A DNA stretch of 37,726 bases from Deltaproteobacteria bacterium (GTDB lineage Bacteria; Myxococcota_A; Polyangia; Polyangiales; Houyiibacteriaceae): assembly GCA_004283055.1 (NCBI GenBank), contig SHLP01000023.1:1-37726 (forward strand). Direction: 5' to 3'. The notes beneath the pieces were generated by a model. It did not search any database and had not been told where the DNA came from. It saw only the letters and a list, made by a program, of their open reading frames with translations. Below are positions 9,204 through 35,458 of the stretch, piece by piece. Made by a program: the position numbers and the translations under genes. The first letter of the stretch is position 1. Every line of letters begins with the position of its first letter.

Positions 9204-10320
9204 AGAAGCTATCCCAATGCTCGATGTCGTTGCTCAAAACGAAGCACTGATCGGTCGACTCACCGAGAAGGCCGCCGAGGTGCTTCGATCTGGCCGCTAC
9301 ATTCTTGGTCCCGAGGTCACCGCGCTCGAACAAGAGGTCGCCGAGTACATCGGCGTCGAGCATGCGATCGGCGTTTCGAGCGGAACCGATGCGCTGTTGG
9401 TCGCGCTGATGGCTCTCGGAATCGGGCAGGGTGATGAGGTGATCAGCACCCCCTTCACGTTCTTCTCGACCGGCGGGTCGGTCGCTCGCGTTGGCGCGAC
9501 GCCCGTCTTCGTCGACATTCGACCCGATACCTTCAACATCGACGTTGACCAGGTTGCGGCCGCCATCACGGAGCGTACGCGCGCGATTCTTCCAGTTCAC
9601 CTGTACGGACAGGCATGCGACATGGAAGGCCTCGTCGAGGTGGCCCGAAAGCACGACCTGCCCATCATCGAGGACGCCGCGCAGGCCATTGGTACGCAAA
9701 GTCCGCTCGGACCCGTTGGCAGCCTTGGCGCCTACGGTTGTTTTTCGTTTTTCCCTTCGAAGAACCTCGGCGGATTTGGAGACGCCGGGCTGGTCACCAC
9801 TCAGGACGCGGGCTTGGCGGAAAAAGCACGAGTCATCCGCGCGCATGGAAGCAAGCCGAAGTACTACCATGCGCTGGTCGGTGGGAACTTTCGGATCGAT
9901 GCCCTGCAAGCGGCGCTCCTGCGCGTGAAGCTTCCCGAGCTGCGAGGCTGGACCGCGGGCCGCCGGCGGAACGCCGCGCGCTACGACGCCGCGTTTGGTG
10001 CCGCCGGCCTGGACGAAGATCTCCTGCGCACGCCGCACAGACGATTCGACGGCCACATCTACAATCAATACGTGATCCGCAGCTCCCGGCGCGATGAGCT
10101 GCTCGCACATCTTCAAGAACAGAAGATCGCCACGACGATTTACTACCCGGTGCCTCTTCATCGCCAGGAATGCTTCGCGGCGCTCGGCTATCGAGCAGGC
10201 TCTCTCCCGGTTTCCGAGCAGGCCAGTCGCGAAGTCTTGGCGCTTCCCATCTTTGCGGGTCTCGGTGAAGCGCGTCAGGGGCGCATCATCGACACCGTAA
10301 TTGCCTTCCTCAGGCGATAG
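9196..10320 (+). CDS. wbpE: DegT/DnrJ/EryC1 sugar aminotransferase, WbpE-like
   Basis: This 374-residue protein has a GTG start inside the end of the acetyltransferase gene. It is a PLP-dependent sugar aminotransferase: IGVSSGTDALLVAL (cofactor phosphate binding), FVDIRPDTFNID, IIEDAAQAIG (Asp contacting the pyridine ring) and the Schiff-base Lys189 in FSFFPSKNLGGFGDAG. WbpE transfers an amino group from glutamate to the 3-keto sugar made by WbpB. It completes the wbpB-wbpD-wbpE operon. The C-terminal TTIYYPVPLHRQECF segment is typical of the family. Confidence 0.9.
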   Translation: MSEEAIPMLDVVAQNEALIGRLTEKAAEVLRSGRYILGPEVTALEQEVAEYIGVEHAIGVSSGTDALLVALMALGIGQGDEVISTPFTFFSTGGSVARVGATPVFVDIRPDTFNIDVDQVAAAITERTRAILPVHLYGQACDMEGLVEVARKHDLPIIEDAAQAIGTQSPLGPVGSLGAYGCFSFFPSKNLGGFGDAGLVTTQDAGLAEKARVIRAHGSKPKYYHALVGGNFRIDALQAALLRVKLPELRGWTAGRRRNAARYDAAFGAAGLDEDLLRTPHRRFDGHIYNQYVIRSSRRDELLAHLQEQKIATTIYYPVPLHRQECFAALGYRAGSLPVSEQASREVLALPIFAGLGEARQGRIIDTVIAFLRR

Positions 10321-32856: not shown

Positions 32857-32973
32857 GACGCCCGTATATGCTTTCGTTCCCGAAGAGCGTCAAGCATTTG
32901 AAAACTGGCCGACTGGCCTGTTTCGAATGTGGTCAAGACGGGAATTTACGGTACCTTGTGCCCCTCAGGTCCC
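32857..32973. promoter_or_regulatory. Divergent promoter region between ACP and alpha-oxoamine synthase
   Basis: This 117-base region is AT-richer than its surroundings. Toward the ACP gene, TTGACG (complement of 32888-32893) lies 17 bases from CATATA (complement of 32865-32870), close to the start codon. Toward the synthase, TTGAAA occurs at 32898-32903 without a convincing -10 box. A direct repeat of ACTGGCC (two copies around 32904-32918) could be an operator half-site. These are weak matches. Confidence 0.25.
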
Positions 32974-34203
32974 ATGAGTTGGATTTCCGAAAAGGCGCAG
33001 AGCGAGTTGACGCGCGTCCGCGACGCGCAAGCGAAGAAAATCTATCCGTATTTTCGTCCGTTCGAGTCCGGCGGGCTTCACACGACGATCGCCGGGAAGC
33101 CGATCGTGAACTTCAGCTCCAACGACTATCTCGGCCTGACGACGCATCCAAAGGTCAAAGAGGCGGCGAAGGGCGTCATCGATCAGTTCGCCTGCGGACT
33201 CAGCTCGTCCCGCGTCCAGGCCACGGCAACCTTGCACGTGGAGCTCGAGAACCGACTGGCGGCCTGGTTCGGATTCGAGAAGTCACTGATCTTCACGACC
33301 GGCTATCAGGCAATGGTCGGCACCATCATGTCGCTGGCCGACAAAGACACGACGGTGGTCCTCGACAACTTGAGCCACGCATGCATCTTGGACGGCACCT
33401 TCTTGGCCGCCGGCACACCGATGCGTGCACCCGAGGTTCGCTTCTTCAATCACAACAGCGCCAAGGCCCTCGATCGCGTCCTTAGAAAACGAGATCGAAA
33501 GAATGCGCTGGTTCTGATCGAGGGCATCTATTCGCTCGACGGCGACGAGGCCAAAATTCAGGAGTTCATCGAAGTCTGCGCGCAGCATGAGAACGTAGCG
33601 ATCGTCTGTGACGATGCGCACGGCACCGGCACGCTCGGCGCCGGAGGCCGAGGCATCATCGAGAAGTACGGCCTTGAAGGGCAGATCCCTGTTGTGATCA
33701 GTACCTTTTCGAAGACGCTCGGCGGCATCGGAGGCATTCTGCTGGGCGAGGCCGACGTCGTCGACTTCATCAAGCATACGGCGCGCTCGTTCCTTTTCAG
33801 CGCGTCGTTGCCGGTTCCGATCGTGGCTGCAGCCAGTGCGATTCTCGACATGCTCGAGGCCGATGGCGAGGCTCTGGTCAGTGAGCTTCACGAAAAGGCA
33901 GCGTACATGCGCAAGGGCCTCATCGACATCGGCCTCGACCTCGGCGAAAGCAACACCCACATCATGCCGGTCATGATTCGCGACGATATCAAAGCGATGA
34001 TGACCCACGTAGGCCTCCTGGAAAACGGCGTGCTGATGGTTCCGATCATGTACCCCGCTGTGAAAGAAGGCGAAGAGCGCCTCCGATTGAACGTGACTCG
34101 CGGTCACAGCTATGAGGACATGGACATGGCGCTGGACCTGCTGCGCACCTTCGCCAGTTCGTTCTCGCTCGTCGGCGAGCCCGCAATATCCGCCGCCACG
34201 TAG
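32974..34203 (+). CDS. Alpha-oxoamine synthase (BioF/KBL/serine palmitoyltransferase family)
   Basis: This 409-residue protein starts at the ATG at 32974. It is a PLP-dependent acyl-CoA/ACP:amino acid C-acyltransferase: NFSSNDYLGLTTHPKV, SSRVQATATLHVELENRLAAWFG, FTTGYQAMVG, H135 (NLSHAC), D213 and H216 in VCDDAHGTGTLG, and the Schiff-base K247 in STFSKTLGGIGG. BioF joins pimeloyl thioester to alanine, KBL acetyl-CoA to glycine, and SPT palmitoyl thioester to serine. The TFSK form around the Lys is more like SPT, while DDAHGTG and NDYLGL are more like BioF/KBL. The divergent ACP hints at an ACP-bound acyl donor. The exact substrate is undecided. Confidence 0.88.
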   Translation: MSWISEKAQSELTRVRDAQAKKIYPYFRPFESGGLHTTIAGKPIVNFSSNDYLGLTTHPKVKEAAKGVIDQFACGLSSSRVQATATLHVELENRLAAWFGFEKSLIFTTGYQAMVGTIMSLADKDTTVVLDNLSHACILDGTFLAAGTPMRAPEVRFFNHNSAKALDRVLRKRDRKNALVLIEGIYSLDGDEAKIQEFIEVCAQHENVAIVCDDAHGTGTLGAGGRGIIEKYGLEGQIPVVISTFSKTLGGIGGILLGEADVVDFIKHTARSFLFSASLPVPIVAAASAILDMLEADGEALVSELHEKAAYMRKGLIDIGLDLGESNTHIMPVMIRDDIKAMMTHVGLLENGVLMVPIMYPAVKEGEERLRLNVTRGHSYEDMDMALDLLRTFASSFSLVGEPAISAAT

Positions 34204-34214
34204 CCGCAATCGAA

Positions 34215-34257
34215 GAACCGTACGATCGGAGAAAGTCTCGCGACGGGCGTGCTCGCG
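34215..34257 (+). repeat. Left arm of perfect 43-bp inverted repeat
   Basis: Begins GAACCGTACGATCGGAGAAA and ends GTGCTCGCG. Its exact reverse complement is at 34562-34604. It starts 12 bases after the stop codon of the alpha-oxoamine synthase. No flanking target-site duplication is evident. Confidence 0.97.
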
Positions 34258-34561
34258 ATTGGGCGCCCCGTCGCCACGGCACCCCAAGTCGACATACGAC
34301 TAGGCGCCGGCCCAATCGCTGTGCTGCCCATCCCGAGGCTTTCTCCTATTGAATGGATATGGATGGAGGGGCGCCGGCGAACGCGATGTGGGGGTTCGGC
34401 GGCGTGTGAGTGACAATCGGCAAGACAGTAACCACCCCCGATTGGCGCGAGCTCCGAGGGGCGGCTTGCGTGGCCCCAGGCCCCAAGCCACTCCGGCCAC
34501 CTTTGCAAGCCGCCCCGTCCGTCGAACCCCCGCGTCGTGTTCGCCGGCGCTCCGGTACGCC

Positions 34562-34604
34562 CGCGAGCACGCCCGTCGCGAGACTTTCTCCGATCGTACG
34601 GTTC
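34562..34604 (-). repeat. Right arm of perfect 43-bp inverted repeat
   Basis: Exact reverse complement of 34215-34257, beginning CGCGAGCACGCC and ending CGTACGGTTC. It lies 77 bases before the SDR start codon. I saw no third copy elsewhere in the window. Confidence 0.97.
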
Positions 34605-34611
34605 ATCGTTG

Positions 34612-34641
34612 CCGTGCCGGCTGGGGGGGTTGGTGGCACGG
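34612..34641 (+). other. GC-rich hairpin between the inverted-repeat element and the SDR gene
   Basis: CCGTGCC (34612-34618) pairs with GGCACGG (34635-34641) around a 16-base G-rich loop. There is no T-run, so it is not a classical terminator. It may be the last helix of the structured element or part of the SDR leader. Confidence 0.4.
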
Positions 34642-34681
34642 CTCTCTAGCCTTAGGGATCGCCCAGCACAGGAGGAGACCG

Positions 34682-35458
34682 ATGAAGCTGCAGGGCAATA
34701 CGATTTTGATCACCGGCGGGAGCGCTGGGATTGGTTTGGCGCTGGCGAAGCAGTTCGCCGCGCTTGGGAACACGGTGATCATCACTGGCCGGAACGCCGA
34801 TAAGCTCGAGGCCGCACGCAAGGAGACGCCAGCCCTCGAGATCATCCAGAGCGATGCGGCGGATCCCGGTGCCGTTCAGGCGCTTGCCACCGAGGTCGCG
34901 GAGCGTTTCCCCGCGATGAACGTCTTGGTCAACAACGCGGGCGTGATGATTCCGCGAAACCATACCGGGCCTGCCAACGATCTCGTCGCACTGACCGCCG
35001 AGCTCGATGTCAACCTTGCGGGTCCGATTCGGATGGTGTCGGTGCTGATCGATCGGCTCAAAGGGAACCGGGGGACCATCATCAACGTGTCGTCTGGGCT
35101 AGCGTTCGTGCCTCTTCAGCTCAGCCCGATCTACTGCGCTACCAAGGCAGCGCTCCACTCGTACACGATCTCGCTGCGCCAGCAGCTCAAGGATGAAGGC
35201 GTCGAGGTGATCGAGCTCATGCCCCCAGCTGTGCGTACGGAGCTGACGGCCGACATGCCCGAGGACGGAGACTTCAAGATCCTCACCACGGCCCAGCTCA
35301 TGGACGAGACCTTCAAGGGCCTTCGCGCGGGCCGTCTCGAGATTCGTCCCGGCCAAGCCAACCAGCTCTACTGGATGTCTAGAGTTGCGCCTGGGTTCAT
35401 CAACGCGCAGCTCGAAAAGGGCTCCAGGGCGATGGTCCCGCCGCCCGAGTCGCACTAG
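34682..35458 (+). CDS. Classical short-chain dehydrogenase/reductase (DltE-like)
   Basis: This 258-residue protein starts at the ATG at 34682 behind a strong AGGAGG; the open frame upstream runs through the inverted-repeat element and is not coding. It has TGGSAGIGLAL (nucleotide loop, residues 11-21), NNAGVM, INVSSG with catalytic Ser138, and the active-site Y151-CAT-K155. The order and the LMPPAVRTEL segment resemble DltE-type SDRs. It probably uses NADPH, since an Arg (TGR) follows strand 2. The substrate is unknown; reduction of a 3-keto lipid intermediate made by the upstream synthase is possible but unproven. Confidence 0.92.
   Translation: MKLQGNTILITGGSAGIGLALAKQFAALGNTVIITGRNADKLEAARKETPALEIIQSDAADPGAVQALATEVAERFPAMNVLVNNAGVMIPRNHTGPANDLVALTAELDVNLAGPIRMVSVLIDRLKGNRGTIINVSSGLAFVPLQLSPIYCATKAALHSYTISLRQQLKDEGVEVIELMPPAVRTELTADMPEDGDFKILTTAQLMDETFKGLRAGRLEIRPGQANQLYWMSRVAPGFINAQLEKGSRAMVPPPESH

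Follow-up and report, generated by a model that had tools for sequence, protein, structure and literature searches.

Small dispersed repeats of bacterial genomes are usually described as simple palindromes. Structured RNAs also spread with mobile elements: HEARO and the omega RNAs of IscB and TnpB are examples, and some of their copies have no protein gene. Among the repeats, YPAL (or RU-2) of Yersinia, about 168 bp long, is dispersed, mobile by comparison of filled and empty sites, not TA-bounded, tied to dyad symmetry, and flanked by target duplications of 3-26 bp; it is linked in transcription to upstream genes, and an effect on transcript stability has been proposed (PMC2229807). NEMIS (Correia) and ERIC elements are TA-bounded hairpins with duplications, and NEMIS RNA hairpins can affect neighbouring transcripts (PMC2229807). 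The REP/RAYT and TIR/TIRYT systems comprise high-copy palindromic repeats located mostly downstream of genes; REPs measure 20-40 bp, and the long TIRs that flank some Y1 transposases (TIRtrons) form repeat families in their own right (PMC3733652).

The element described here is nearest in kind to YPAL, NEMIS and the REP/TIR repeats, and is set apart by a multi-branched covarying core, common to several families, that is joined to ends without such a signature. Like YPAL, it is dispersed and mobile by filled and empty sites, with copies at gene 3' ends; unlike YPAL, it has a core (module B) for which no target duplications were detected, which is multi-branched and covaries across several families, and no sequence shared with YPAL is shown. 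It resembles NEMIS/Correia and ERIC as a small MITE-like repeat, but has a conserved three-way junction and separate DNA-like ends. The host genus, as in the TIR/TIRYT case, has Y1 genes with long terminal inverted repeats, but these do not match the element, which also exceeds the size of REPs. Finally, module B is structured-RNA-like and has spread with a mobile element, as HEARO and omega RNAs have; the element differs from them in that it has no Rfam match, and no protein gene, such as that of a nuclease, recurs beside its copies in 123 loci. A literature search whose reach left out most subscription journals returned no description of it.

The window, meaning the whole 37,726-nt stretch of DNA analysed, carries one complete copy between two genes. 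Its features are these:

32929..34203, plus strand: upstream gene, class I/II aminotransferase (glycine C-acetyltransferase-like)
34216..34603, plus strand: the whole dispersed element, 388 nt, made up of left arm, hairpin A, linker, module B and right arm; ends from comparison with other copies
34215..34257, plus strand: left terminal arm, perfect complement of 34562-34604
34228..34346, plus strand: hairpin A, from the alignment fold of 26 copies; also a stand-alone repeat
34368..34553, plus strand: module B, structured RNA-like three-way junction of about 186 nt, with covariation over 49 copies and a G-U excess
34368..34402, plus strand: 5' strand of P1, the long stem of module B; pairs with 34519-34553
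34390..34531, plus strand: covariance model R1, which describes the core of module B, scores 158.4 bits here (E 1.4e-27); this copy belongs to the R1 training set
34410..34448, plus strand: P2 hairpin of module B (34410-34420 / 34438-34448), conserved GUGNCAA...UUGGCNCG, order-wide
34458..34516, plus strand: P3 hairpin of module B (34458-34475 / 34495-34516), conserved CUUGCGUGG...UGCAAG
34519..34553, plus strand: 3' strand of P1; pairs with 34368-34402
34562..34604, plus strand: right terminal arm, partial inverted copy of the end of hairpin A
34682..35458, plus strand: downstream gene, short-chain dehydrogenase; its orthologues in genomes G012, G017, G018 and G002 show which sites are filled and which empty

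Judged against the copies of relatives, the element runs from about 34216 (AAC...) to about 34603 (...GTT), its left end being 12 nt past the aminotransferase stop codon (34201-34203). The pairings reported in the initial annotation are all present: the perfect 43-bp inverted repeat (34215-34257 / 34562-34604) is fully complementary, and with one mismatch allowed extends to 47 nt at 98% (34211-34257 / 34562-34608); the 32-bp pairing (34371-34402 / 34519-34550) has exactly four differences (34383, 34387, 34389, and 34399), each G-U on the plus strand; and the third stem lies at 34458-34475 / 34495-34516. The AGGAGG before which the element had been said to end does stand before 34682; it is most simply the ribosome-binding site of the dehydrogenase gene and no part of the element. 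An RNA spanning 34201-34681 has a predicted minimum free energy of -306.6 kcal/mol, whereas 100 dinucleotide shuffles average -214.2 +/- 6.7 (z = -13.7).

The 5' strand of hairpin A has alternative pairings, either locally (34310-34346) or perfectly with the right arm. Over the 26 aligned copies of this hairpin (window 34228-34346), the inner helix is nearly invariant and is interrupted at intervals of two to three bases by a mismatch or bulge (GACGGGCGTGCTCGC / GCTGTGCTGCCCATC); this regularly interrupted helix is perhaps a protein site. At the start of the window, positions 1-180 hold short tandem repeats of the CAGTGC/CAGCGT type (reading frame TLALALTLTL), and repeats of this type also stand beside several element copies, for example at loci L033 and L062.

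Module B carries the evidence for a selected fold. An alignment of 49 copies gives a 60-pair structure in which 97.8% of cells are paired and 34 pairs have changed on both sides. The covariation score is 0.281, compared with 0.110 +/- 0.005 for shuffled alignments and 0.035-0.071 for slid controls, so a covariation check of the kind proposed at the outset, made on the alignment alone, yields compensatory changes beyond both kinds of control. The mismatches are of one type: 217 G-U cells versus 9 A-C cells, or by pairs 22 versus 4 (sign test p about 5e-4), counts of non-independent events in that the copies are related. This 24:1 ratio greatly extends what had been a one-in-16 hint, from the four G-U differences, of a plus-strand fold. 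Compensatory change beyond controls and strand-specific tolerance of G-U pairs, both marks of a structured RNA, are thus found together in module B. Rfam 15 contains no family that reaches its gathering threshold for the window or for the B homologues tested.

The ends behave otherwise. In the arms of 12 full copies there are 10 G-U and 15 A-C mismatches, without strand bias; in hairpin A the count by pairs is 2 G-U versus 5 A-C, and its 23 G-U cells come almost all from one nearly fixed pair. A palindrome that acts only as a duplex is expected to accumulate the two kinds of mismatch equally, which is what the arms show, and this comparison indicates that selection acts on the plus strand of module B in single-stranded form. 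The unbiased arms belong to the same elements and so serve as an internal control, which argues against mutation bias in B. By the same measure the 43-bp arms appear to behave like DNA ends. The structured RNA of about 400 nt originally proposed consequently contracts to the ~186 nt of module B; it does not hold over the whole length, where the arms behave like DNA palindromes. Strand bias by itself cannot separate RNA from single-stranded DNA folding, because G-T pairs also form in single-stranded DNA.

A covariance model, R1, was built from the core of module B. It finds matches in 18 of the 19 genomes of the genus. Further matches come from four more genera, represented by G031 (7), G022 (3), G056 (11), and G061 (4), the last two of which belong to other families of the same order. 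Weak matches were accepted, most of which keep the same unpaired motifs. In the resulting order-wide set of 27 sequences (24 from outside the genus), 97.0% of cells are paired, both partners have changed in 25 of 37 pairs, and covariation scores 0.447 versus 0.133; the alignment was fitted to the model and hence is biased toward the structure. RNAalifold predicts nearly the same fold from it. Module B, by this distribution, predates the genus.

Searching the related genomes, as had been recommended, revealed a dispersed multi-copy family. The window's own genome (G000; 4.31 Mb in 293 contigs) has 69 stretches that match the element, many of them parts of copies and several to a copy; the covariance model of module B alone finds 22 copies there. 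Across the genus, 18 of 19 genomes contain between 4 and 66 matching stretches each. The matches in G000 often fall at contig ends, so the repeat evidently breaks the assembly. In the single-contig relative G006 (C1), most copies (L114, L117, L120, and others) contain runs of N; assemblies of these genomes therefore drop such repeats systematically, and the copy numbers given are too low. Module B copies within G000 are up to 95% identical, which makes the spread fairly recent. Hosts recovered by a pattern scan are uncultured Myxococcales/Polyangiaceae MAGs, including Myxococcales bacterium SG8_38. Matches to a 19-base pattern in Bacteroidales, Oscillibacter, and Bacillota contigs are due to chance, and do not match the covariance model. 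Phages, plasmids, and viral contigs gave no match to the element.

Copies built in the same order, from left arm through hairpin A, linker and module B to right arm, are present in G003, G004, G012, G017, G006, and others, and A and B are each also found alone. The separate matches of the modules suggested that B had been inserted into A; this is opposed by the A-B-A' order, which recurs across several species and thus points to the composite as itself an old unit. A further repeat (GTAATCCTCCCTGGCGCGGC ... CGGGCTTCGCCCTTCGGGCTCGCGCTGCCGC) often lies directly upstream of module B in G000, G012, G017, and G018 (L072:1380-1465, L201:390-475, L259, L305, L310, and other loci), so that B forms part of larger mosaic repeats. 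A single-copy "master" locus was also considered, since G011, G013, and G007 have one B copy each. The surroundings of the G011 and G013 copies differ, and so these copies have moved too.

Filled and empty sites were compared at three places. The window site, in the gap between the aminotransferase and dehydrogenase genes, is filled in G000, G017, and G012 (partly assembled in G012) and empty in G002, which has only a short spacer. In G018 a 13-nt fragment of the element's end remains, and this nearly empty site could reflect deletion as readily as non-insertion. At a second site, upstream of a gene that we take from its sequence to be EVE-domain-like, G017 and G012 have the element, while G016, G001, G013, G011, G009, and G008 lack it. 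The third site lies between convergent genes; it is occupied in G005 but not in G001. A dispersed multi-copy family together with sites that are empty in relatives indicates that the element is mobile. It is non-autonomous as far as seen, because no protein recurs beside the copies (the largest protein cluster beside module B accounts for 7 of 123 loci).

The element has three features of a MITE: inverted repeats at its ends, numerous dispersed copies, and empty sites. A MITE should also share its ends with an autonomous transposon in the same genomes; no transposase with ends like these came to light, the comparison being with the terminal repeats of the Y1 genes. Target-site duplications, also predicted, were not detected for module B (direct repeats 2.73, versus 2.78 in shuffles); the full-length copies in this comparison form too small a set and were counted on both strands. 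A classical MITE with duplications is accordingly not shown for the element. The initial annotation had offered RNA and MITE as alternatives, but each describes a different part: the family is mobile, with empty sites, and module B has compensatory change. An empty site had likewise been held to argue against a functional RNA. Empty sites do exist; that inference does not follow from them, since a functional RNA may be part of an element that moves.

The copies prefer the 3' ends of genes. Among 86 copies with neighbours called by a simple script, some of them orthologous, the gene downstream of B points toward it (antiparallel) in 59 cases and away in 17, and its stop codon is often 0-10 nt from the end of B; the gene upstream points toward B (parallel) in 36 cases and away in 11. 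Most copies thus occupy gaps between convergent genes and prefer one orientation. The copy in the window departs from this, in that its downstream gene is co-directional.

Together, these results favor a model, which we consider likely, of a small non-autonomous mobile element in which hairpin A and the arms are DNA ends and module B is a conserved plus-strand three-way junction, most likely an RNA. The ends would be used by an unlinked transposase acting in trans, with module B carried between them. The RNA would arise from transcription that runs into the element out of a neighbouring gene. Because the fold is maintained across copies, including those without A, and has relatives in several families, its most likely role is in the spread or persistence of the element itself. 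It could, for example, be bound by a protein, or form a transcript-end module through which an insertion between convergent genes does no harm.

The main rival is that the plus-strand fold is selected as single-stranded DNA: module B would be the recognition structure of an HUH/Y1-type transposase (IS200/IS605, RAYT, or TIRYT), and any RNA incidental. Preferred orientation at insertion and absence of target-site duplication are usual for single-stranded DNA transposition, and module B has both a preferred orientation relative to gene ends and no detected duplication; single-stranded DNA tolerates G-T pairs, and Y1 transposase genes occur in 13 of the 19 genomes, several of them between 44- to 80-nt inverted repeats. 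However, among the Y1 genes examined none is flanked by an element copy, and their terminal repeats have no significant similarity to the element. The copy-rich genomes G017 and G009, both incomplete, lack a Y1 match, and we know of no Y1 recognition hairpin as large as a 186-nt three-way junction with conserved unpaired bases. On balance we judge a single-stranded DNA role unlikely. A further alternative is an ordinary MITE or fold-back element whose stems are only DNA palindromes, kept by gene conversion or transposase binding and under no selection as a single strand. The lack of coding capacity fits, as do the MITE features noted above, and for hairpin A and the arms, with their unbiased mismatches, this description stands. 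For module B it is opposed by the G-U excess and the conserved loops, and as an account of the whole element it is very improbable.

Long arms surrounding a multi-stem RNA resemble the layout of retrons, and the element could be the relic of a reverse-transcribing element, either a retron msr-msd with the arms as a1/a2 repeats or a group II intron without its ORF. Repetitive msDNA-like sequences were reported in the myxobacterium Nannocystis exedens (Lampson and Rice 1997, by its title as cited in PMC6868368). Against this, reverse transcriptase (PF00078) is absent from the window's own genome and present in only 2 of the 19 genus genomes despite abundant copies; neither a group II intron nor any other Rfam family matches; and module B occurs without arms. 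Such an origin is scarcely credible.

Descent from a REP/RAYT or TIRYT system was considered separately: none of the Y1 genes examined, several with long inverted repeats, has ends that match the element. Those at L137, L141-L144, and L146-L148 are flanked by imperfect inverted repeats of 44 to 80 nt (GGGACACTCTCCACCCC... type), like published TIRtrons and unrelated in sequence to the element. In the window's own genome, a perfect 21-nt hairpin, AAAAGGGGACAGTCCCCTTTT, stands on either side of the Y1 gene (L136:8828-8848 and 9560-9580; contig C95 of G000). Similar sequences at several other loci make this a possible REP-like family.

With module B read as most likely an RNA, the element is probably a new class of mobile bacterial RNA. 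Selection is clear on the multi-branched fold of one strand in B and lacking in the ends of the same copies, so that RNA-level and DNA-level functions become separable by sequence alone. If B is an RNA, its family is new and missing from Rfam, hundreds of natural variants and usable covariance models are at hand, and a testable question arises, namely what moves and keeps an RNA element that has no protein. A bolder proposal, which we regard as possible and rather doubtful, is that module B is a new RNA class and itself the mobile unit. Its fold, as RNA or as single-stranded DNA bound by a host or unlinked enzyme, would be needed for propagation; it would have spread independently in several Polyangiales families and recruited hairpin A and the arms as DNA ends in this case and different ends in others, which would make it loosely comparable to a bacterial SINE that encodes no partner.

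In G056, homologues of B occur as divergent pairs about 210-240 nt apart: at L342 (1139-1291 minus, 1501-1647 plus) and at L354 (1503-1646 minus, 1883-2031 plus). This suggests a paired layout in that family.
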